The notes below the pieces were generated by a model that was not told where the DNA came from, searched no databases, and saw nothing but the letters and a program-made list of their open reading frames with translations. A stretch of DNA of 64,000 nt from Lyngbya sp. CCAP 1446/10 (GTDB lineage: Bacteria; Cyanobacteriota; Cyanobacteriia; Cyanobacteriales; Microcoleaceae), in assembly GCF_026130175.1 (NCBI RefSeq), contig NZ_JAIGNI010000001.1, positions 62,001-126,000 of the forward strand, given 5' to 3'. The position numbers and the translations under genes are program-made. The first letter of the stretch is position 1, and every line of letters begins with the position of its first letter. Of the stretch, positions 1,417-13,982 are shown one piece after another.

Positions 1417-1792
1417 TGACTGCTCCGGGAATCTGTTGGACTTGCTTACAGCTTAAGTTAAATTGAGCTGATCTTTGACAAAAAACAGGTTTAATTTATT
1501 TATAACCATCATCAAACTTCTGTCTGTTGAGAATTTTCCACAAACTTTTATTTATCACGCAGGCGGGTTGACTTGTTGCCAATGTTTGTGCTATGTGAAA
1601 TCTGGTATTAGTAAATTTGGTGAAAATCATAATTCAAAATCCTAAAATGCTGTAACTGAGATAAAATATAAAAATTGTAAAGAATTATTTACGACAGCTT
1701 GATCAACTCAAGCTAGGAACTTTAGGCTCGAATCAACGAAAAGCCGGAAAGTCAACCGAAAAACAACAGCCACCTAGAGAGGATTGAACACA
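1417..1792. other. Intergenic region upstream of sodB
   Basis: About 375 bases of AT-rich DNA between the divergently transcribed PsiE-like gene and sodB. It probably holds both promoters. I see no confident -35/-10 pair or operator. A good ribosome binding site (AGAGAGGA, about 1776-1783) sits before the sodB ATG. Confidence 0.4.
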
Positions 1793-2395
1793 ATGGCATT
1801 TACACTCGCACCATTACCCTTCGCCGCTGACGCATTAGAGTCAGGTCATATGTCGGCCAACACGTTTTCGTTCCACCACGACAAACACCACGCTGCTTAC
1901 GTGACCAATCTCAACAAACTGATTGAAGGCACCGAACTAGCCAGCAAATCCCTCGAAGAAATTGTGATGGCATCTGCTAAAGACCCATCAAAAGCCGGCA
2001 TCTTCAACAATGCAGGTCAAGTTTGGAACCACAATTTCTTTTGGAATTCCCTCAAAGCGGGTGGCGGCGGCACTCCGACAGGAGCTTTAGCTAATAAAAT
2101 CAATGCCGACTTCGGCAGCTTCGACAAATTCAAAGAAGAATTCAAGGCTGCTGCGACAACTCAGTTCGGCAGCGGCTGGGCTTGGCTGGTTTTGGATAAC
2201 GGTACTTTGAAAGTTACCAAAACAGCTAATGCTGACACCCCGCTAGCACATGGCCAAACTGCGTTGCTGACTTTGGATGTGTGGGAACACGCTTATTATT
2301 TGGATTTCCAAAACCGCCGTCCCGACTACATTACTAATTTCTTGGATAATTTGGCTAACTGGGATTTCGCAGCAGCAAATTTGGCTGCGGCTTAG
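1793..2395 (+). CDS. sodB: Iron superoxide dismutase
   Basis: Converts superoxide to oxygen and hydrogen peroxide in the cytoplasm. The 200-aa protein starts at ATG 1793; a TTG three codons earlier is in frame, but AGAGAGGA is correctly spaced for 1793. Metal ligands by motif are His28 (FHHDKHHAAYV), His80 (VWNHNFFW), Asp162 and His166 (DVWEHAYYLDFQNRRPDY). Gln76 just before the second ligand and the AGQVWNH context mark the Fe rather than Mn subtype. A strong hairpin follows (2421-2455). Confidence 0.97.
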   Translation: MAFTLAPLPFAADALESGHMSANTFSFHHDKHHAAYVTNLNKLIEGTELASKSLEEIVMASAKDPSKAGIFNNAGQVWNHNFFWNSLKAGGGGTPTGALANKINADFGSFDKFKEEFKAAATTQFGSGWAWLVLDNGTLKVTKTANADTPLAHGQTALLTLDVWEHAYYLDFQNRRPDYITNFLDNLANWDFAAANLAAA

Positions 2396-2460: not shown

Positions 2461-2896
2461 TTGTTTATTTCCGAGGACTGAAGTTCTGACTACTAGCTTA
2501 ATAGGTTCGCTTAAGTAGGTCGGCGCTGTAAAACGCAAATATGTAAACGATTGTAAAGTATTCAAATGCACATCTAGCAACACTCGTTAGCCTTGTTTAC
2601 ATATTTTTATATTGTGAAGTTTAATATCGCCTACAACTTAAGTGGATGTAAGAATAGGTGTGGTAGTTTGGGAACTTCCACTGCCTCACACGGTATCTAA
2701 TTTGTGAAGATTTATAAACCCATTTGTAGCGAGGAAAGGATAGTAGAACTCTCCAATCCTCGCAAAATCGGGACGTTTCCCCTTGCTATAGCAATGTTGT
2801 TGTGATAGATAGAGTTCTGGACAGATAGATGTCTGAGAGATAGATTGTTAATATTGGAGGCAGCGACATTTAACACAACCTTTTGGAGTATAGAAA
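2461..2896. other. Intergenic region upstream of the GT2/NRPS gene
   Basis: AT-rich DNA with a decayed hairpin repeat at the left and several GATA tetranucleotides near 2806-2850. GGAG at about 2884 is a ribosome binding site for the ATG at 2897. No promoter is confidently visible. Confidence 0.35.
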
Positions 2897-5800
2897 ATGA
2901 CAAAAAATGTATCAGTAGTGATTCCATCTTATAACAGCGCCCAATTTTTACCGGAAGCAATAGAGAGCATACTTGAGCAGACTCTACCCGTATTTGAGAT
3001 TATTGTCGTAGATGATGGTTCTACTGATGAAACGAAAGAAATCTGCGATCGCTACCCAGCAGTAAAATACGTCTATCAAAACAACCAAGGCGTTGCTGCT
3101 GCACGCAATACTGGTCTGGGGGTTAGTACAGGAGAGTATATTGTTTTCCTGGATAGTGATGACTGCCTTTTACCTGAAGCGATCGAGATTGGAGTCAAGC
3201 ACATCAACGCCCTACCAGAGGTGGGCTTTGTATTTGGTCGTTATTTCTTCTATTCCATTCAACCTGATGGCTCATACAAAGTAGAAGAAAAATATGAGGA
3301 TCAGCCTGAAGTTGCTAATTATCAAACCATTTTAGCCACCCAGCATAAGATTCAATGCGGTTGTATTATGTTTCGGCGTGTTGCTCTGGAGTCCGTCTCT
3401 ATTGAGTCTGTTGGTGCATTTGACCCAAGTCTTGTGCCGATGGAAGATATCAATTTGTTCCTGCGGGTAGCCCGTGATTTTCCGATCTATTTCCACGGTG
3501 AAGTCGTTTCTAAATATCGCTACACTGGCAATAACCTATCCAGTAAATCGGCAAAAATGCTGATCCAGGCAAGACTATCTCATGGTCGGCAATGGAGTTA
3601 CATTCAACAGACTGGAAAAGAAGAATATATAGCGGCTTACGAACAAGGAAAAAGGTCTTGGACTAAGCTTTTTGCCGATCGATTGCCTTACGAAATCCTG
3701 AGATATATACGAGCTAAACAATGGGTTGCAGCGTTGGGTATTCTGAGATTGATCTTGTATTACGATCCTAAATTGCAGTGTATCGATCGGGAAATCTACG
3801 AAATATCCTATACAACTCTGATGTCAGAGCTACGCAAGCTCCCCCTTCAAGACTCCTTAGCGTATTGGCAAAAACAACTTGCGGGAGCCACCCCTTTATT
3901 ACCCCTACCCACTGACCGGCCACGTCCCCCAGAGCAATCCCTCCAGGCAGCTTCTCTGTCTTTTGGCATTTCTGGGGAAATCACCACGGCCCTGGGTCGA
4001 TTGGGCGGGCAGGAAGGCGTCGCCCTATCCACAACCCTGTTAGCCGCGTTTAATATCTTGCTCTATCGCTATACAGGTACGGAAGATGTGATTGTTGGCT
4101 CCCCCTTTGTGGGCCGTGTGAATTCAGAAAATTTCGTGAATGCTGTCCCCCTTCGTACAGATATGTCGGGTAATCCCACGTTCCCAGAGTTTCTGGGACG
4201 AATGCGGAAAGTTGTTTTGTTAGGGCAAGCCTATCAAGATGTGCCCTATTGCTTATTGGTCGATCAATTTTGTCCCCAGCCCGACTTAAGCTATTCCCCT
4301 CTGTTTCAAGTGACGTTTGTCTTTGAGGAAAATATTCCCTTCCAAAGGATCGATCTGTCAAGATTAACAGCCAGTCCGTGGGTGATTGAAAATAACGAGG
4401 GGAAGTTTGACTTAACTTTATTCTTAAAACCAACCAGCGCAGGATTGGAGGGGAGTTGGTACTACAGCACGGATTTGTTTGATGCAGAAACTATTGAACG
4501 AATGAACGAGCATTTCCAGATTTTGTTGTCTGGGATTGTGGCTCATCCAGAACAATCGATTTCTGCCTTGCCGCTGTTGCCAGACCAAGAGAAAAATCTG
4601 TTGCTTGTGGAATGGAATCAGACTCAAAAAGATGAGTCGCAAGATCTATGCCTGCACCAGTTAATAGCTCAACAAGCAGAAGTAACTCCAGATAAAATTG
4701 CGGTTTCCTTTGAAGGTCAAACATTGACTTACGAAGAACTACATCAACGCTCTAATCAACTGGCCAACTATTTGCAACAAAGAGGGGTGAAGCCGGATGA
4801 TTTAGTGGGCATTTGTGTCGATCGCTCTCTGGAAATGCTGGTGGGATTATTAGGTGTGCTGAAGGCGGGCGGAGCCTATGTTCCCATAGACCCCAACTAC
4901 CCTCCCGATCGCGTGGAATACATGATCGAGAATTCCCAAGCCAAAGTATTGTTAACACAACAGCAGCTTGTGAAGAGCCTACCTACGGAAGAATCATTGG
5001 TCATCTGTTTGGATACGGATTGGCCACTGATTGCTCAAGAGAGTCAGGAAATGCCGATCGCCAGTGTTACGCCAGAAAATATGGCCTATGTCATTTATAC
5101 ATCTGGTTCCACGGGTAAGCCCAAAGGTGTACAAGTTCTCCACCGTGGCGCAGTCAATTTTTTAAAGTCGATGCGCGAGCAACCGGGGATCAGTGCGACG
5201 GATATTTTGCTATCTGTCACAACACTTTCTTTTGATATTGCAGTCTTAGAACTGTTTTTACCCCTGACTGTGGGAGCGCAGGTTGTGATCCTGAGTCGGG
5301 AAGCTGCGATGGATGGCAGAAAGTTATTAAGGACGATCGCCCAATTAGGCATTACGATCCTGCAAGCAACTCCAGTGACTTGGCGATTATTGCTGGAATC
5401 GGGCTGGGAAGGTCAGTCCCCGATGAAAATGCTCTCCGGTGGGGAAGCCATACCGAAAGAATTAGCTGCTCAATTGTTAACCAAAGGTACGGAACTTTGG
5501 AATATGTACGGGCCAACGGAAACAACAGTTTGGTCAACGGTTTATCAAATCAAAGACCCCGAACAGCGAATTTTAATTGGTAAGCCGATCGCCAACACCG
5601 ATATCTACATCTTAGATTCTCTCCTGCAACCCGTTCCCGTTGGGGTGGCTGGGGAATTACATATTGGTGGTTCAGGATTAGCGCGAGGCTATTTGCAACG
5701 TGACGATTTAACCACTGAGAGATTTATTCCTAATCCCTTTCGAGAAACCGAACGAATATATAAGACGGGGGACTTAGCACGTTATTTGCCAGATGGAAAT

Positions 5801-7234
5801 ATTGAGTGTTTAGGTCGCCTAGATTTTCAAGTCAAAATTCGCGGTTTTCGGATCGAACTCGGTGAAATCGAGTCTGTTTTGGTCAAACATTCCAACGTGC
5901 AGCAGGCAGTGGTCATCGTCAGGGAAGATTTTCCTGGCGACAAGCGTCTAGTGGGTTATATTGTCGCTCTCAACAATCAGAACCCAAGCATCCAAGAACT
6001 GCGAAGTCTGCTCAAGGAGTATGTACCAGAATATATGGTGCCGTCTATCTTTGTTTTCTTGGAAGCTCTACCCCTAACACCGAATGGTAAGGTAGATCGT
6101 AAAGCTCTACCTGTACCTGAACAATCTCGCGAAGCAGCAATCATACCCGCCACTCAAAAGGCTCTAGATTTGCCCGCCCCTACACCTCAAGAAAATCCAG
6201 AACAGCCAGGAGAATTTGCCAGTCCCCAGGATGATTTGGAAGTTCAACTCATCAATATTTGGGAACAAGTATTGAATATTTCATCCATCAGTACGACAGA
6301 TAATTTCTTCGAGATGGGAGGACATTCCCTATTAGCGATATCCCTAATGCGTGAAATAGAGAAAACCTACAAGAAAGAGCTACCTTTACCTATCCTTTTC
6401 CAATCACCAACGATTCACCAGTTGGCTCACACCCTTCGTAAACAAAGATTATCGTCTTCTTCGCAGGCTTTAGTCACGATTCAGAAAGGTAGTTCCAAAC
6501 TGCCTTTATTCTTTATTTACGGCATCTTCCTTTACTATAACTTATCAAGACACCTGGGCAAAGACCAAACCTGTTATGGAGTCTATGTCAAAGAGGAAGT
6601 CAATATGTTCCAAAAGAATAAACTTGACCAATCACCAACCCCTTCAGTGAGTATTCCAGAGCTGGCCACTCGCTACCTCAAAGAAATACAAAAACATCAG
6701 CCTAAAGGCCCTTACCTCCTAGCGGGTGAGTCATTAGGTGGCTTAGTAGCATTTGAAATGGCACATCAACTTCGTTTACAAGGTGAAGAAGTAGCTTTAC
6801 TTTGCCTTTTGGATAGTGCGATTCCAGGAAAAAATCAACTGTCATTGAGTCAGAAGCTGGCTTTTCATATCAAAAAGCTGCGCCAAAAAGGGCTTTCATA
6901 TTTGCTTCAAAAGATAGTAGAATCGAAGACTAAATCGACTCCTGATATTAACATTAATAATGTTAATAGTAATCCGGTAGATCCTCGATTACAGTTTCGG
7001 GAGTACGCTTTTAATAGTTACAAGCCACAGCCTTACCAAGGCAGGGCAGTTTTGTTCCGGGCGAAGGAGGAAAGTCACTTTAGCACTTTGGAAAACTGGA
7101 AGGAACTGTTGCTTGAAGGATTAGATATATATGATATCCCTGGAGATCATCTAAGTATCCTTCAAGAACCCAATGTCCCTCTCTTAGCCGAAAAAATGAG
7201 AGTGCATATCGATCAAGCTTTAGCAAAACTTTAG
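2897..7234 (+). CDS. GT2 glycosyltransferase / truncated C-A-PCP-TE NRPS chimera
   Basis: A 1445-aa protein. Residues 1 to about 290 are a GT-A fold family 2 glycosyltransferase (VVIPSYNSAQFL at the start, VVDDGSTD 37-44, DSDD 86-89, ED 183-184). Residues about 316-560 are only the C-terminal half of a condensation domain (AYWQKQLAG, LPTDRPRP, SYSPLFQVTFVF); the N-terminal half with HHxxxDG is absent. Residues about 585-1075 are a complete adenylation domain (IYTSGSTGKPKG 733-744, YGPTETT 871-877, YKTGDLARYLPDG, NGKVDRKAL). Read against GrsA, the specificity residues are D780 I781 L784 Q823 L846 G848 M870 V878 W879 K1065, very close to glycine codes. The carrier Ser is S1144 (GGHSLL). A type I thioesterase ends the protein (GESLGG S1279, D1306, GDH H1418). 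Product unknown. No partner module or Sfp-type phosphopantetheinyl transferase lies in the window. Confidence 0.9.
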   Translation: MTKNVSVVIPSYNSAQFLPEAIESILEQTLPVFEIIVVDDGSTDETKEICDRYPAVKYVYQNNQGVAAARNTGLGVSTGEYIVFLDSDDCLLPEAIEIGVKHINALPEVGFVFGRYFFYSIQPDGSYKVEEKYEDQPEVANYQTILATQHKIQCGCIMFRRVALESVSIESVGAFDPSLVPMEDINLFLRVARDFPIYFHGEVVSKYRYTGNNLSSKSAKMLIQARLSHGRQWSYIQQTGKEEYIAAYEQGKRSWTKLFADRLPYEILRYIRAKQWVAALGILRLILYYDPKLQCIDREIYEISYTTLMSELRKLPLQDSLAYWQKQLAGATPLLPLPTDRPRPPEQSLQAASLSFGISGEITTALGRLGGQEGVALSTTLLAAFNILLYRYTGTEDVIVGSPFVGRVNSENFVNAVPLRTDMSGNPTFPEFLGRMRKVVLLGQAYQDVPYCLLVDQFCPQPDLSYSPLFQVTFVFEENIPFQRIDLSRLTASPWVIENNEGKFDLTLFLKPTSAGLEGSWYYSTDLFDAETIERMNEHFQILLSGIVAHPEQSISALPLLPDQEKNLLLVEWNQTQKDESQDLCLHQLIAQQAEVTPDKIAVSFEGQTLTYEELHQRSNQLANYLQQRGVKPDDLVGICVDRSLEMLVGLLGVLKAGGAYVPIDPNYPPDRVEYMIENSQAKVLLTQQQLVKSLPTEESLVICLDTDWPLIAQESQEMPIASVTPENMAYVIYTSGSTGKPKGVQVLHRGAVNFLKSMREQPGISATDILLSVTTLSFDIAVLELFLPLTVGAQVVILSREAAMDGRKLLRTIAQLGITILQATPVTWRLLLESGWEGQSPMKMLSGGEAIPKELAAQLLTKGTELWNMYGPTETTVWSTVYQIKDPEQRILIGKPIANTDIYILDSLLQPVPVGVAGELHIGGSGLARGYLQRDDLTTERFIPNPFRETERIYKTGDLARYLPDGNIECLGRLDFQVKIRGFRIELGEIESVLVKHSNVQQAVVIVREDFPGDKRLVGYIVALNNQNPSIQELRSLLKEYVPEYMVPSIFVFLEALPLTPNGKVDRKALPVPEQSREAAIIPATQKALDLPAPTPQENPEQPGEFASPQDDLEVQLINIWEQVLNISSISTTDNFFEMGGHSLLAISLMREIEKTYKKELPLPILFQSPTIHQLAHTLRKQRLSSSSQALVTIQKGSSKLPLFFIYGIFLYYNLSRHLGKDQTCYGVYVKEEVNMFQKNKLDQSPTPSVSIPELATRYLKEIQKHQPKGPYLLAGESLGGLVAFEMAHQLRLQGEEVALLCLLDSAIPGKNQLSLSQKLAFHIKKLRQKGLSYLLQKIVESKTKSTPDININNVNSNPVDPRLQFREYAFNSYKPQPYQGRAVLFRAKEESHFSTLENWKELLLEGLDIYDIPGDHLSILQEPNVPLLAEKMRVHIDQALAKL

Positions 7235-7242
7235 GCTGTTGA

Positions 7243-7377
7243 GTTGAACGACTTATACAAGCGATTCAACAAGCTATTACAGATCAAACAATGCGTCAAC
7301 GCGCCGCCAGATTGGCGGCGCACATCCAAGGTGAAGATGGTATTATCAAGGCAGTTGCTATCGTACAGGAAATCTAA
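7243..7377 (+). pseudogene. C-terminal remnant of a family 1/28-type glycosyltransferase
   Basis: Starting 8 bases after the NRPS stop, 44 codons read as ERLIQAIQQAITD, then RQRAARLAAHIQGEDG and IKAVAIVQEI, then TAA. This matches the C-terminal helix pattern of MGT-like UDP-sugar glycosyltransferases (AI..A..D, RAA.L...I..EDG, AV..I). The frame is blocked upstream by TGA at 7240-7242 and has no start, so only the last part of the gene survives. I infer that a deletion between the NRPS gene and this gene removed the rest. Confidence 0.65.
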
Positions 7378-7456
7378 AATTGTGGGACTGTTTACGGATA
7401 ACCCGTATTCTACTGGAGGAATTCAAAGAACCTTAAGTTAATCGTACTTATACCCA

Positions 7457-7842
7457 AATACGGTTTACTTAAGTTATAGAACCCATTTGATATCTATTCT
7501 GCGTAAATCTCAGAAACCGGGTTGAGCTCTATATTTCTCGTCACCCAACTAAAAACTCGTAGAAACCCGGTTTCTCGCCCCTTGCGTAAATCTCAGAAAC
7601 CAGTTTCTCTCTATATTTATCGTCACCCAACCCAAAAACTCAAAGATTTCAAATGGGTTCTATAAGGATTGTGAATTAAATAATTTCCATTTTTCTTCTG
7701 GCCCATCCCACAACAATCAAATTTGGAAGTTATTTAATTCTCATTTCTAAGTTGTAGGGTGCGTCGCTCGTTTAATCTGGCGTTCCAGGGCGAGAGTTGT
7801 TTTTGGCGACGCAGCCTACGTTGACTTAAGTGAACCGTATTG
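7457..7842. mobile_element. Nested inverted-repeat (MITE-like) element
   Basis: Outer 18-base inverted repeats at 7457-7474 and 7825-7842 (AATACGGTTTACTTAAGT against its complement, one mismatch) enclose a second element with perfect 16-base ends, TATAGAACCCATTTGA (7475-7490) and its complement (7649-7664). Inside the inner element a GAAACCGGGTTT-type hairpin unit is tandemly duplicated. To its right is an imperfect GTAGGGTGCGTCG / CGACGCAGCCTAC arm pair (about 7755-7820). There is no open frame. It ends one base before the stop of the SGNH hydrolase. Confidence 0.7.
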
Positions 7843-7843
7843 G

Positions 7844-8587
7844 TTATCCCCCCTTCAGTATTTTTAATAAGGCTCTTCGATAAATCTGTCTGCCTTCTGA
7901 GTCAAGGTGAACGCCATCTGTTGTGACCTTATCTTTCAATACTGTCCCTTCGTACAGGGGCTGAATTTCTTTTTCTACTATCAATAACTTATCTGTCGCT
8001 GCCACTTGACGAGTCAAGGCTTGAATGGTTTTCACTCTTTCCAAAGGGCCCGCTAGTGTGATATCATGGCTGGCTTCAATCGTTGAGTAAAAAGCAGGGA
8101 TTAACACTACTTTTTTGGTGTTCATTTTTGTTCTGACAGTGTGGATAATTTCCTGCATATTGTTAACAAATTGTGGATCATTTATCCGATAACCCGCATC
8201 ATTAGTACCGATCGCAATAATTGCTGTATTACATTTAACGTTAGCAGCAGTTAATAGTTTTAGCTGGTCGATCAGAGAAATTGTTGACATTCCGGGCAAG
8301 GCAAAATTAAAAGTATCTTTACCCATTGTATTTCCCAGCCCAGAAGTGATAGAATCGCCCCAAATGCAAGCATTGATTTGAGTATTTTTAGTCAGATATA
8401 GTTGATAATCAACTTCATCTAGCCACCAAGAATTAGAACTTAGGGTGTCTGTCGATAATTCGATAGAATTTGCATTCAACATGACTAAAAATCTACCTAA
8501 ATACCCCCTCTTCATCGTAAACTCTAAAATCCCTGTTAAGAGAATGACATTCAATAGCAGTGAAATGGTCGCGATATGTTTTTTCAT
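7844..8587 (-). CDS. Membrane-anchored or exported SGNH (GDSL) hydrolase
   Basis: A 247-aa esterase/lipase-like protein. An N-terminal hydrophobic helix (about residues 6-23) anchors or exports it. Block I is GDSI with Ser79, block III GTND with Asn129, and block V DGVHLD with Asp224 and His227, so the triad looks intact; Gly99 in FALPGMS is the probable block II glycine. Related enzymes deacylate or deacetylate polysaccharides, lipids or secondary metabolites. It converges with the GT2/NRPS gene and sits in the same repeat-rich island. A role in tailoring that product is possible but unproven. Confidence 0.82.
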   Translation of the reverse strand: MKKHIATISLLLNVILLTGILEFTMKRGYLGRFLVMLNANSIELSTDTLSSNSWWLDEVDYQLYLTKNTQINACIWGDSITSGLGNTMGKDTFNFALPGMSTISLIDQLKLLTAANVKCNTAIIAIGTNDAGYRINDPQFVNNMQEIIHTVRTKMNTKKVVLIPAFYSTIEASHDITLAGPLERVKTIQALTRQVAATDKLLIVEKEIQPLYEGTVLKDKVTTDGVHLDSEGRQIYRRALLKILKGG

Positions 8588-8623
8588 TCAGGTATGAGCA
8601 AGCAAACTAACAGAAATTATCAA

Positions 8624-8749
8624 TAGACCTCTTGCAAAAGTCCTTTTAATCCAATTGTGGAACAGGCTTTCCGGCCTGTTGCACGATAAACATTTTTTAT
8701 TGTGGAACGGGCCGGAGAACCCGTCCTAGTTATTTTTGCAAGAGGTCTA
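8624..8749. mobile_element. MITE with TAGACCTCTTGCAAAA ends
   Basis: A perfect 16-base terminal inverted repeat, TAGACCTCTTGCAAAA (8624-8639) and its complement (8734-8749), bounds 126 bases. The interior holds palindromic GGAACAGGC..GCCTGTT and GAACGGGCC..GGAGAACCCGT segments. There is no coding frame. Relatives lie at 15097-15218 and, as one end only, at 59183-59200. The remaining 8750-8877 shows nothing notable. Confidence 0.75.
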
Positions 8750-8877
8750 ATCACTACACTACCAAAAAGTAATTCACAATTATAATCAGTTTGTCAGATC
8801 GCGAATTATGAATTAAGCGATCGCACTGCTCCATCTTGTTTGAGATCGAATAGAGTGTGCGCGTAAGACTGGATTAG

Positions 8878-11610
8878 CTAGCAGACTAAAACAGCTTTTA
8901 ACATTCCTTCGCCTTGGTCTAGTTGGAACTCAAATCCTAATTTTTTACAGAGACTCTGCATCTTGTAGTTGCTAGTGAGAATGTAACCGACGATCGCATT
9001 TAACTTCTCTTCCCGACCAATTTGCAGCAGCCGCCTCAATAATTCTGTTCCCAAACCGCGCTGCTGATAGCTATCGCTGACGATGAGCGCAAATTCGGCT
9101 TCGTTTGTGCCGTGGAGTTTGCTGAGACGTGCTACTCCCAAAATCCGGTGTTCTAAGGTTTCCGGGTCTTTGCGATCGGCTACTAACAGCATTTCCCGAT
9201 CGTAGTCAATAAAACAAATCCGGGTCAAACGTTCGTGAGCGATGCGGTGCTTTAACTTTACCATGTGAGCGTAGCGCAAATACACGCTTTCTTCGGAAAG
9301 CTCTTGATGAAACAGCACCATCAGCGGCTCATCTTCTGGGCGAATCGGACGGATCATGATGGGATGATCTGTCAGAGTTGACCATTCTTGAACGTATTGC
9401 ATAGGATAGGGGCGAATCGCGGGTAAAATGGCGTTTTCGGCAGAGTGGAGAACAACGCGGGCATCGAGGGCGATCGCACCTTCTGGAGAAACCAACAGCG
9501 GATTAATATCTATCTCGGCAATCTGAGGTTGCTCGACAATTAGTTGACTAAAACGAACTAATAACTGTTCGAGTTTTTCTAGGTCAATTGCCGATCGCCC
9601 GCGCACTCCTTGCAAAGCTTTATAGATGCGCGTTTGCTCCATCATCCGCCGCGCCAGGGTAGTATTTAAAGGCGGCAGTGCGAGCGATCGATCCTGAAAC
9701 ACTTCCACCAATTGTCCGCCGGAACCAAACAGCATTACTGGCCCAAATTGAGGGTCAATACTGCTACCCAAAATTAGTTCATAGCCTTCCAAATGCACCA
9801 TTTGCTGCACAGTCACGCCGAGAAACGCTGCGGGATCGATCGCCCGTACCCGCTGGGCGATCGCTTCAAAGGCACTAATTACAGCCTTAGCATCGCCTAA
9901 ATTTAGTTGTACGCCCCCCACATCGGTCTTGTGAGTAATCGTCTCAGAATGCAGTTTTAGCACCACTGGATAACCGAGGCGATCGGCAATTTCCACAGAT
10001 TCGGCTGGGCTGAGGGCAATTTCGGTGGCTACAGTGGGAATTCCATAGGCTGCGAGTAACTGCTTTGATTCGTATTCTGTGAGCAAAGTGCGATCGCTTT
10101 TGACAACAGAAGTCAAAATATTTGTGGCCGCCGATCGATCGCAAGTCGGGATTTCCGCAGCGGAGAGAGCAGGCGTTTCGTAGATAGAGCGCAGGTTGTA
10201 GCTGTACCGCCACATATAATTAAACAACCTGACTGCGGTATCGGGATAGGGGAAAGTCGGAATATTTGCCTGATTCAGAATTTCCGTTGCCGCTAACACT
10301 CCCGCACCGCCCATCCAGCTTGTTAATAAGGGCTTTCCGAGTTGGCTGTAGGACTTGAGTAGTTCTGCGGTTTGGGTGGGATTTGTCATCGCTTGGGGTG
10401 TGAGGATGACCAGCAATCCGTCACTATTGCGATCGGGAGCGACTACTTCTAGAGTTTTGGCGTAGCGATCGCTACCAGCATCGCCCAAAATATCGATCGG
10501 GTTTTGATGGCTCCACTGAGGGGGTAAAAACTCATCAAGCTGTTGCAGCGTCTCCGGTGCAAGCTCTGCGAGGGCACCGCCGCCGCTAATTAAGGCATCA
10601 GTGGCGATCGCCCCTGGGCCTCCGGCATTGGTGACGATCGATAGGCGGTTCCCCTGGGGTCGCGGTTGCTTTGCCAGAATTTCTGCCATGTCGAACAAAT
10701 CGGAAATTGTGTGTACGCGCAACGCGCCACAGCGCCGGAAAGCAGCGTTGAGCACGTCATCGCTGCCGGTCAAAGCTCCCGTATGGGAAGCGGCGGCTTT
10801 CGCGGCGGCGGCGGTACGTCCCACCTTGAGAATGATGATCGGTTTGTCGATCGCCACTGGGCGGGCGGCGGAGAGGAACGATCGAGCATCACCCATCGAT
10901 TCCATGTACAAAACGATACTGTGGGTGTGGGGATCGTCGCCGAAATAATGAATCAGATCGCCCCAACCGACATCGAGCATGGAGCCGATCGACACAAAAG
11001 CGCTAAAACCGACATTTTCGCCCAAACTCCAGTCTAGAATCGAAGTACAGAGGGCGCCGCTTTGACTGATGAAGGCGACATTACCCGGACGGGCGATCGA
11101 GCCTGCAAAAGTAGCATTCAGCCCCAGCACAGGATTCATCACGCCGAGACAATTCGGGCCGATAATCCGCATTTCGCCCAGACGCGCTTCGGCCAGAATT
11201 TGCTGTTCTAAAGCAACTCCCGCCGGCCCAATTTCTTTAAAACCAGCCGAAACAATAACTGCTCCTTTCACCCCAGCAGCGATACATTCGCGGATCACTT
11301 GCGGCACACTAGCCGCCGGCGTAGCAATCACCGCGAGATCCACTATTTCCTGGACGCTAGCAATGTCAGGATAGGACTTGAGTCCCAAGACGCTGCGGCG
11401 CTGTGGATTCACCGGAAAAACCGTTCCGCCAAAGGGATTGCGAATCAAGTTCCACAGGAGAGTACGTCCGACGCTTCCTGCTCTCTCTGTTGCGCCGATT
11501 ACAGCCACGGAGCGAGGATGAAAAATGTGATCGAGCGGATGACGCTGTTCTTTCCAAATATCGTGAGCCGGATCGCTCGCAGTGCTTTGAGTTCTTGAAT
11601 TTATCTGCAT
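8878..11610 (-). CDS. Pat-like NDP-forming acyl-CoA ligase / GNAT acetyltransferase
   Basis: A 910-aa multidomain enzyme. An N-terminal CoA-binding Rossmann domain (about 27-125, [16 protein letters not shown]) is followed by the succinyl-CoA-ligase-like domain ([25 protein letters not shown]) and an ATP-grasp domain (about 500-715, [21 protein letters not shown]). A C-terminal GNAT domain follows (about 740-905, [25 protein letters not shown] as the acetyl-CoA loop). This is the arrangement of protein lysine acetyltransferase Pat/YfiQ, which acetylates acyl-CoA synthetases. In enterobacterial Pat the ligase half is inactive; I cannot tell here. The gene is monocistronic, and the next gene upstream diverges. 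Confidence 0.88.
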
Positions 11611-12033
11611 AATACCCTACTTCAATTAATCAGCAATTAATATTGATCTGCTTTCGATAACAATTACCGCATCCAATCCAAACTATTTTTAGGCTCTTTT
11701 TCGGCTTTTTATTCATCTTCTTCGGATGTTCGCGGTTCCTGACCAAAAAATCTCATTGCGCGTTTCCGACCGACCCCTCTTAAACAACATTTTCGTTGTC
11801 CAACAGTTAGTTCGGAATCCCATTTTATTATAGCTTCCTCACAAATTACAGAGGATGTTCTGCATACTATCTATTTTAATTCTTCCCACCGAATTAGTAA
11901 GTCAATTTTTGTAACAAATAGCGAACAGAGTATTTAAAATATTGAGATTAAATATATGCTAGATATAGCGGTCGGAGAAGAAAAAATCGCTCGCTAACAA
12001 AAAATAAGGTGAAAGCAAGCTATATTAGTAGAA
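11611..12033. other. AT-rich gap before the pflB remnant
   Basis: About 420 bases with no recognisable gene. It should contain the Pat promoter and whatever is left of the pflB promoter and first codons. No clear signal is visible. Confidence 0.35.
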
Positions 12034-12036
12034 TAG

Positions 12037-13739
12037 CACGGCTTTACTGAAGGCAACTCGACAAAGGAAGTCAACGTCAGAGACTTCATCCAAAAGAATT
12101 ACACCCCCTACGAAGGGAATGCAGAATTTATCGCAGCACCAACAGAAAAAAACCAGCAACTTTGGCGCGCAGTTCTGGAACTAATGAAACAAGAGCGCGA
12201 AAAAGGTGTGTTGGATGTTGATACAAAAGTACCCACATCGATCGTCGCTCATGCTGCGGGATACATCGATCGCGATTTAGAAAAAATAGTAGGTTTGCAA
12301 ACCGATCGACCTTTGATACGCGCGATTATGCCCTTCGGCGGAATTCGCGTGGTCAAGACAGGTTTAGAAGCTTACGGTTATCAACTCGATCCACAAACAC
12401 AAGAAATATTTACGAAATATCGCAAAACACACAACGATGGTGTCTTCGATGTTTACACCCGCTCCATGCGTTTGGCGAGACGTTCTGGTATCATCACAGG
12501 TTTGCCAGATGCCTACGGACGCGGGCGCATCATCGGTGACTACCGGCGGGTTGCTCTGTACGGTGTCGATCGCCTGATTGACGATAAGAAACAACAGCAA
12601 GAATCGCTCGAACTAGAGGCGATGGAAGAGGGAACAATTCGTTTGCGCGAAGAGTTATCCGAGCAAATTCGCGCATTGTTGGAGTTGAAAGAAATGGCTG
12701 CTAACTACGGCTTTGATATTTGCAAGCCGGCGGCCAATGCACGAGAAGCTGTCCAGTGGCTGTATTTTGGCTACTTGGGAGCAGTGAAAGAACAAAACGG
12801 GGCGGCGATGTCTCTCGGTCGTGTATCGACGTTTTTAGACATTTATTTCGATCGCGATTTGCAAAGTGGCGCGAGTTCAGAACTGGAATTGCAAGAACTG
12901 ATCGACCATTTTGTCATGAAACTCCGCATGGTGCGGTTTTTGCGAACTCCCGACTATAACCAACTGTTCTCTGGCGATCCAACTTGGGTAACAGAGGCGA
13001 TCGGTGGTATGAGCAATGACGGGAGAACCTTGGTAACTCCCAACAGTTTCCGATTCCTCCACACTCTCTCAAACCTCGATACTGCACCAGAACCGAACCT
13101 CACCGTTTTGTGGTCGGAAAACTTGCCGGAAAGCTTCAAGGAATTCTGTGCAAAAATATCCAGCGATACGAGTTCGATTCAGTACGAAAACGACGATTTT
13201 ATCCGTCATGGTTACGGCGATGATTATGCGATCGTTCGTTGCGTATCCGCCATGCGAATTGGTAAGCAAATGCAGTTTTTCGGGGCGCGAGTTAACTTAG
13301 CTAAGACTTTGCTCTATGCGATTAACGGCGGTATAAATGAGAAGTCCGGCGACCAAATCGCGCCGCAGTTTCCACCAATTACTTCCGAATATCTCGATTA
13401 TGACGAGGTAAAAGCGCGGTTCCATGACATAATGGCGTGGTTAGCAAAAACCTATATCAATACGCTGAATGTCATTCACTATATGCACGATAAATACTGC
13501 TACGAGCGGCTAGAAATGGCATTGCACGATGCACGATTCAGGAGGCGATCGCCAGTCAGGGAATTAGCGATGATTTCTTTTTTGCTCGTGTTGAGGAAAT
13601 GGCCGATCGCGCTTTTGACGATCAGTGCACCGGGGCTAACCCCCGCTACCCGCTGATTGAAGATTTAAAGCAGCTTCTGCTGCAAGCCTACTCTGACACC
13701 AACACTTCTGGGGTAGATCGAGAGTTAACTGTAGTTTGA
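12037..13739 (+). pseudogene. pflB/adhE remnant: Collapsed pflB-adhE locus (pyruvate formate-lyase joined to AdhE tail)
   Basis: From 12037 the frame reads HGFTEGN, then [17 protein letters not shown], the PflB N-terminus, but the preceding codon is TAG (12034-12036) where PflB normally has Trp, and no start is visible. The frame then runs through PflB landmarks ([22 protein letters not shown], here split as two motifs; [20 protein letters not shown]). The catalytic Cys-Cys pair reads Arg-Cys (IVRCVSAM). Homology stops at about 13530 and the open frame runs to 13656 in unrelated sequence. From about 13536 another frame reads [15 protein letters not shown] to TGA 13737-13739, which is the extreme C-terminus of AdhE. 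The glycyl-radical half of PflB and nearly all of AdhE are missing. Confidence 0.88.
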
Positions 13740-13769
13740 TAAGCTGTACTGCATCTAACGAGTAGCCAG

Positions 13770-13836
13770 AAACCGGGTTTTTCAACTAAAATCGTGGGTA
13801 GAAACCCTCAATTTCCTGAAAACCCGGTTTCTTTGT
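13770..13836. repeat. GAAACCGGGTTT hairpin repeat
   Basis: AGAAACCGGGTTTT near 13771 and AAAACCCGGTTTCT near 13822 form an inverted repeat with a middle GAAACCCTCAA segment. The same family occurs at about 7510-7640, 30165-30275 and 60415-60492. Confidence 0.6.
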
Positions 13837-13982
13837 CCTCAAATCTAAAAATCTAAACATCGCCCTCGAAAATCGCCAAAGTCGATCTATTTGCCATAGG
13901 CGGTTTAAAAATTCAGAAATTGTGATATAGTTGAAAAGGTAACTGTTTTAAGAATTTTGTAATTTTAGTGGCTGTTCGCGCG

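Follow-up and report, generated by a model that had tools for sequence, protein, structure and literature searches.

The 64,000-base stretch of DNA from Lyngbya sp. CCAP 1446/10 that was analysed here (contig NZ_JAIGNI010000001.1, positions 62,001 to 126,000; the window) carries, at bases 2897..7234 of the forward strand, a gene for a protein of 1445 amino acids in which a family 2 glycosyltransferase (GT2) is joined to a nonribosomal peptide synthetase (NRPS) module that has only half a condensation (C) domain. The domain order, from the open reading frame (ORF) listing and Pfam, is GT2-C'-A-PCP-TE, where C' is the C-terminal lobe of a condensation domain, A an adenylation domain, PCP a peptidyl carrier domain and TE a type-I thioesterase domain. 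A preliminary description of this DNA had claimed a complete GT2 domain joined to the second half of a C domain without HHxxxDG and followed by intact A, PCP and TE domains, a joint at residue ~316 (base ~3840), and a frame open across all 1445 codons. Pfam, motif searches and the ORF listing (ORF 2897-7234, + strand) bear out all three claims, with the joint placed by the Pfam boundaries at residue ~316, base ~3845.

Domain organization of the fusion protein

The GT2 domain (residues 1-315; 2897..3841, + strand) consists of a GT-A core, residues 1-~210, and a helical tail. The Glycos_transf_2 profile (PF00535) matches residues 6-166 (1.1e-38), and a string search placed DD at 39-40, DSDD at 86-89 and ED at 183-184, so that both the DxD-type metal site and the acceptor-side ED of a GT-A-fold GT2 are present. 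The Condensation profile (PF00668) matches residues 317-570 (1.9e-48) over profile positions 191-456 of 456 only, and C' (3845..4606, + strand) is accordingly the C-terminal lobe alone. The A domain (4652..6109, + strand; AMP-binding at residues 591-933, AMP-binding_C at 990-1065) has the glycine-type code DILQLGMVWK. It is followed by the PCP (6233..6442, + strand; PP-binding at residues 1117-1179), with Ser1144 within GGHSLL, and the TE (6509..7216, + strand; Thioesterase at residues 1213-1433), with Ser1279 within GESLGG and His1418; the PCP and TE residues were located by string search.

A motif search found no HHxxxDG in the entire window protein, nor in residues 1-700 of any of the fused homologues tested (64/64). 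As controls, three NRPSs with a full Pfam C domain were searched, of which L033 and L066 have the exact motif and L037 does not; the motif was not found in the C'-only proteins L036 or L014. Set against a canonical C-A-PCP-TE module, then, the window protein lacks an active condensation domain, its PF00668 match being partial and HHxxxDG missing, and it has the remaining elements, namely a complete A specificity code, the PCP Ser and the TE Ser/His. Like a tailored initiation module, it carries an additional enzyme domain ahead of the first A domain.

The structure model of GT2-C' is confident, and depicts a polysaccharide-type GT2 followed by a C-lobe. Fold matches of the glycosyltransferase (GT) part are K4 chondroitin polymerase, WrtF and similar GT2 enzymes, a fold that reveals no acceptor. 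A model of residues 1-1182 had a pLDDT (predicted local distance difference test score) of 52.9 and was set aside. The VIA rows span mainly 265-578 of the model, and no absence is drawn from them.

Homologues and distribution

A homology search with residues 1-700 of the window protein gave the best 120 of 5598 matches; by precomputed Pfam annotation, 64 of these 120, query included, combine GT2, Condensation and AMP-binding. A second search, with residues 1-320 of the homologue P0039, gave the best 120 of 1181 matches. The two listings were pooled into 178 distinct proteins, query included, and domain order was determined by our own domain scan. Among the matches listed, GT2 lies upstream of A in 83/178, query included, and 81 of these have C'. 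The main types among the 83 fusions are GT2-C'-A-PCP-TE (43) and GT2-C'-A-PCP (31); the rest are four proteins with two A-like matches, two GT2-C'-A, one GT2-C'-A-PCP-KS-AT-PCP (KS, ketosynthase; AT, acyltransferase) and two without C', which read GT2-A-PCP-KS(-AT). The other 95/178 lack the GT2-before-A order and are, by Pfam annotation, NRPSs lacking GT2 or proteins with several GT or other domains.

Catalytic motifs are retained in nearly all homologue rows. D39, D40, D86, D88 and D89 are identical in all 62 aligned rows, and E183/D184 are conserved in at least 90%; the exact ED is missing from P0041, P0049, P0050 and P0056. P0049 and P0056 (1985 and 1933 amino acids), whose GT is without ED, have two A-like regions after C', and the code of the first region is non-standard. 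The TE nucleophile is Cys rather than Ser in P0042, P0043, P0046, P0047 and P0048 (GWCY.G, GAYCYEG).

Named carriers include Microcoleus, Oscillatoria nigro-viridis PCC 7112, Rhizonema and Chamaesiphon. A further search returned eight loci, seven of them in carriers that include Pseudanabaena 'Roaring Creek' and Oscillatoriales metagenome-assembled genomes (MAGs); the eighth, in Dysgonomonas, matches the GT part weakly. The host range is likely to be strictly cyanobacterial. Within it the gene was found in 6/29 Microcoleus genomes, in 8/217 genomes of the family group of Rhizonema genome G392 and, in the order group of the Pseudanabaena genome, in 1/38, the Pseudanabaena genome itself. In the family group of Chamaesiphon genome G390, 8/11 genomes are positive: three match over the whole joint, four match at the GT end, their C' being reduced or absent, and G418 is cut by a contig end. 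A sample of the phylum gave 40/386 genomes at threshold, of which only four, all of the window's genus, match over the full joint, the remaining matches being to the C' end alone or the GT end alone; eight candidates were scored per genome, and absence elsewhere is not proven by this search.

A C' start is not confined to the GT2 fusion, because NRPSs without GT2 begin with the same C-lobe remnant (C'-A-PCP...), namely L066:8094-14879, in the window's own genome (C144), L036:9876-13292 and L014:3836-7315. A TGA in the C144 match precedes the ATG at 8094 of the C144 NRPS (L066). In a Microcoleus MAG (L011:970-5345, G039) the fusion gene is split into ORFs of 396 and 1062 amino acids that overlap by 4 bases inside C', through decay or assembly error. 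The metagenome proteins P0043 and P0044 are identical over residues 1-1050 and then continue with TE in one and KS-AT-PCP in the other, the result of module exchange or of an assembly chimera.

Adenylation codes and glycosyltransferase lineage

Alignment of the A domain gave the code D-I-L-Q-L-G-M-V-W-K from residues 780, 781, 784, 823, 846, 848, 870, 878, 879 and 1065, letter for letter the code that had been read by eye. Glycine is the substrate expected from this sequence, because DILQLGMIWK, which differs from DILQLGMVWK by one conservative change, is recorded as glycine-activating in the available part of PMC12283262. The match to LgrA (linear gramicidin synthetase) is not counted in favour of glycine, its two A domains giving matches of about equal quality.

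Two groups of relatives recur below: the Rhizonema-type genomes (G392, which is Rhizonema, G603, G604 and G621) and the Chamaesiphon group of seven genomes (G389, G390 and G391, which are Chamaesiphon, with G416, G417, G422 and G423 of the same family group). The glycine-type code is found in Microcoleus, in Rhizonema-type proteins and in G525. The threonine-type code DFWNIGMVHK, recorded under threonine in the accessible portion of PMC12283262, occurs in most of the Chamaesiphon group, in Pseudanabaena, in G436 and in G437. Behind the GT there also occur, in one or two cases each, DVWHISLIDK, DAWQFGLIDK, DALWLGGTFK, DATKIGEVGK and DVWCIAMVYK, and two fused proteins have non-standard codes. 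We take DVWHISLIDK to be Ser-like and DAWQFGLIDK to be Gln-like.

Some proteins are similar throughout except in the core of the A domain. By block, P0034 and P0028 are 82-96% identical over residues 1-350, 26-54% over 701-900 and 76-96% over 1101-1350; the pairs P0031/P0026 and P0045/P0040 have the same dip in the A core, with GT identities of 70-94% and 58-84%. In a tree of the GT part, P0031 (Ser-like) pairs with Gly-coded P0025 (support 98/92) and P0045 (Thr) pairs with Gly-coded P0043 (99/87), while P0034 adjoins Gly-coded P0028 at a fork that is not resolved. As 18/48 inner branches of this tree are open, only starred pairs were used; two of the four intended outgroup rows (P0155, P0161) landed inside the family on very long branches. 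Judged from these sequences, recombination does occur in the family, with differing A cores placed within similar proteins. A similar GT can thus stand beside different amino acids, and the pairs argue, short of proof, for a GT that is blind to the identity of the amino acid. We did not retain O-glycosylation of a side chain as the family's general reaction: glycine is among the common codes, and some pairs combine a similar GT with different codes.

Selective constraint and the origin of the joint

Ratios of nonsynonymous to synonymous substitution (dN/dS) were estimated by the Nei-Gojobori method for Microcoleus copies, as six pairs from five genomes. Values were 0.19-0.37 for the GT2 core (1-210), 0.46-0.58 for the GT tail, 0.16-0.24 for C', 0.16-0.33 for A and 0.33-0.53 for TE. 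Purifying selection acts on the GT2 core, C' and A. Values for the PCP ran from 0.23 to 1.32 and those for the short linker before it exceeded 1 in 4/6 pairs, but the linker and PCP figures rest on 45 and 67 codons and values above 1 are not taken as a sign of selection. Constraint on C' is close to that on A, though C' is without the condensation motif; this, together with the retention of the joint across differing partners, suggests a physical coupling that matters.

The preliminary description had left two readings open, of which one was a chimera left by recombination. A recent recombination chimera, or a decaying gene without function, would be in keeping with the accessory distribution in Microcoleus (6/29 genomes), with the MAG copy split by a frame change within C', and with the recombination seen in the differing cores. 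We nevertheless reject it as highly improbable, because the joint recurs in 81/178 of the listed proteins, across genera, and because dN/dS is 0.16-0.37 in the GT2 core, C' and A and well below 1 in TE also; the retention of the catalytic motifs points the same way. A chimera confined to one strain was ruled out by the homologue search, the Microcoleus genome survey and the domain scan, and the architecture survey of the 178 listed proteins did not yield a joint in one strain only with homologues that all have a full C domain and no GT2. As for composition across the joint, there is a slight difference in guanine-plus-cytosine content (0.42-0.43 in GT2 versus 0.48 in C'), which does not show the recent origin that had been entertained. 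The second reading, a productive GT-NRPS enzyme, has such support as sequence can give.

Genomic context

In 11/21 genomes a gene for an initiating sugar-phosphate transferase (PF02397) lies within 10 kb of the fusion gene, against an expected 0.34 derived from gene counts and genome sizes. Because the genomes with PF02397 belong to few clades, these represent about two independent associations rather than eleven. The four Rhizonema-type genomes share one order of co-directional genes, namely PF02397 initiator, methyltransferase, GT4, Wzy-like, GT1, GT2-C'-A(Gly)-PCP-TE and Wzx-like, with gaps of -26 to 207 bases between genes and of 443-556 after the initiator in 3/4 genomes; G602 repeats this order on a contig truncated at either end. 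In all seven genomes of the Chamaesiphon group a PF02397 gene is less than 4 kb away and a Wzy-like or Wzx-like gene lies within about 25 kb. Here GT2-(C')-A-PCP leads into KS-AT-PCP-aminotransferase and then into C-A-PCP modules with TE, and in G416, G417, G422 and G423 little or nothing of C' is left, the A match beginning 26-88 residues past the GT match. G436, G437 and G525, of the Rhizonema family group, encode a single chain, GT2-C'-A-PCP-KS-AT-...-A-PCP-TE, with a Wzx-like neighbour only at G525. Around the Pseudanabaena gene lie, among others, genes for a polysaccharide deacetylase and a GT2. The context in the two groups of relatives suggests a glycan as the partner of the amino acid, rather than the release of a glycine-derived product that the preliminary description had put forward. 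At the Pseudanabaena locus we also observed that the DNA polymerase III gamma/tau gene (L010:17817-20207) carries an intein-type insertion.

In the window the gene sits between an Fe/Mn superoxide dismutase (SOD) gene (1784..2395, + strand), which is outside the enzyme at the upstream edge of a variable block, and a GDSL lipase gene. A Pfam scan of nine other ORFs between bases 107 and 19668 found no polysaccharide gene and no further NRPS. The variable block of Microcoleus genomes corresponds to 2512-13900 and runs from SOD to a conserved stretch near 13900, with strains carrying differing pieces. At 18/27 SOD loci, all in fusion-free genomes, sequence matching window ~13900 comes soon after SOD; in L009 and L065 the order is SOD, fusion, then the base-13900 sequence. 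PCC 7112 has the fusion at another place, with a GDSL gene about 1.5 kb off. A pyruvate formate lyase-like ORF at 12184-13656 (490 amino acids, profile 32-530 of 647), with no long frame downstream, is possibly truncated.

An orphan copy without glycan neighbours, as in Microcoleus, might also be expected if the two activities were only loosely coupled, GT2 making a glycoside and A-PCP-TE making a free or ester-linked glycine product released by TE, with the fusion merely co-regulating them. Stand-alone single-module A-PCP-TE enzymes do exist, for example MysE of mycosporine synthesis. We think loose coupling improbable, in view of a GT2-C' joint retained across different A cores, TEs and polyketide synthase (PKS) continuations, and of a constraint on C' about that of A, which suggests that coupling of the parts matters.

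Proposed function

We tentatively favor, at somewhat less than an even chance, a dual-function glycan-tailoring enzyme in which GT2 builds a sugar chain and the attached module provides the glycan with an amino acid. The GT2 domain would transfer a sugar during assembly of an oligosaccharide, probably polyprenyl-linked; the A domain would activate glycine and load it onto the PCP; and the TE would pass the aminoacyl group on, to the glycan and not to a second amino acid, with an amide on an amino sugar as the likeliest bond. C', its condensation activity presumably lost, would be a structural platform joining GT2 and A. The GT2-(C')-A-PCP front of the Chamaesiphon group, and that of G436, G437 and G525, starts a PKS/NRPS line that would build a longer side chain. 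The orphan Microcoleus copy would work on a glycan in trans, a glycan being the presumed target of its relatives too.

Several points weigh against this proposal. A PF02397 initiator lies near the gene in 0/5 genomes tested of Microcoleus, the genus of the window, the window's genome included; there the neighbors are SOD, GDSL lipase and genes without evident link, making the gene an accessory orphan. PF02397 was likewise found within 10 kb in 0/3 of G436, G437 and G525 and in 0/1 in Pseudanabaena; a PF02397-like fragment at G525 was not confirmed by Pfam. G436, G437 and G387 have no initiator within 10 kb and no Wzy-like or Wzx-like gene (reference scan; Pfam scan of G387), and such initiator-free genomes argue against a universal glycan-cluster rule. 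The clades with glycan context are few and are non-independent samples, and a common operon is no proof of a common product. Nor are GT and amino acid independent, because the clades of the GT tree largely track the code; the Chamaesiphon-group rows are nearly all Thr-coded, and most stand together in that tree. P0031, P0034 and P0045 are known as database proteins only. Finally, no known TE that transfers an amino acid to a glycan has been brought forward.

The main rival, which we regard as unlikely, is the tailoring of an initiation module, as in formylation by LgrA. GT2 would then glycosylate the PCP-bound amino acid, at N-alpha or at the side chain of Thr or Ser, and the TE or the next module would take the glycosyl-amino acid. 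The position of GT2 before the first A in 83 fusions among the matches listed fits this, as formylation (F) domains also occur there in NRPS initiation modules (PMC8949500, available part). So do the KS-AT or further modules after the fusion module in the Chamaesiphon group, G436, G437 and G525, by which the module starts an assembly line, and so does Thr, one of the two common codes, whose rows group in the GT tree. Glycine, the other common code, has only its amine to offer, however; the pairs with a similar GT and a different code are mildly against; and the fold neighbors of the GT are polysaccharide enzymes, though the fold shows no acceptor.

Returning to glycan tailoring, a wider proposal is possible, though we hold it with more doubt than confidence. 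The family may be an NRPS-derived enzyme class for bacterial polysaccharides, in which GT2 adds a sugar and the same chain mounts an amino acid on the repeat unit (Gly, Thr, Ser or Gln, as the codes indicate). What is mounted would instead be a side chain of peptide and polyketide in certain lines, the Chamaesiphon group among them, and cores exchanged by recombination would re-decorate the surface glycan. If glycan aminoacylation is true, there would be a gene-level explanation for the amino-acid-bearing amino sugars of surface glycans, assembly-line enzymes would be shown to act on polysaccharides, and the assembly-line and Wzx/Wzy worlds would meet in one polypeptide. NRPS genes lying outside recognizable metabolite clusters might then be glycan genes, which calls for caution. 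The family also offers a natural series of stepwise C-domain reduction, from the C-lobe of Microcoleus, the Rhizonema-type and three Chamaesiphon genomes to a short remnant or none in four others of the Chamaesiphon group, and a second series of differing A-domain cores within otherwise similar enzymes.

Comparison with known systems

No description of a GT-NRPS fusion was found in the open-licence literature; most subscription papers lie outside this scope, and absence is unproven. The word 'glycosyltransferase' occurs 0 times in the review PMC8949500, and the part of PMC4558948 at hand has one orphan cyanobacterial NRPS/PKS cluster with a separate glycosyltransferase gene. The fusion joins known kinds (GT2, N-terminally tailored NRPS initiation modules and Wzx/Wzy pathways) in a combination absent from the open-licence literature found.

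LgrA, with the architecture F-A-PCP, likewise has a foreign tailoring domain N-terminal on an initiation module, and it is the best PDB sequence match from C' onward (6mfz, 1.8e-277). It differs in having an F domain in place of GT2 and in its known formylation of the PCP-bound amino acid; nor is LgrA known to have a C' separating F from A, or to belong to a glycan operon. The lincosamide and streptothricin synthetases give a precedent for joining NRPS-activated amino acids to amino sugars, the activated amino acid ending amide-linked to the sugar (PMC4351081, accessible part). They differ in that the lincosamide synthetase consists of split proteins with the amide bond made most probably by LmbE, whereas the streptothricin synthetase uses a C domain, and in that both make small antibiotics. 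Neither is known to have a fused GT2. In the Dlt system (D-alanylation by DltA/DltC) an A domain and a carrier likewise decorate an envelope polymer; it differs in its separate proteins, membrane-bound transfer and lack of a fused GT or TE. K4 chondroitin polymerase, WrtF and similar GT2 enzymes share the GT fold but have no NRPS domains fused.

A further comparison is with polysaccharides that carry N-aminoacyl amino sugars and are made by Wzx/Wzy-type pathways. No NRPS module is known to have been assigned to adding their amino acids, and a search of the open-licence literature found no NRPS module for glycan aminoacylation. Gly and Thr amides of amino sugars are among the bacterial O-polysaccharide structures in the available part of PMC3210612. 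As in the pathways to N-aminoacyl amino-sugar polysaccharides, an initiator, Wzy and Wzx occur as operon partners in relatives of the fusion.

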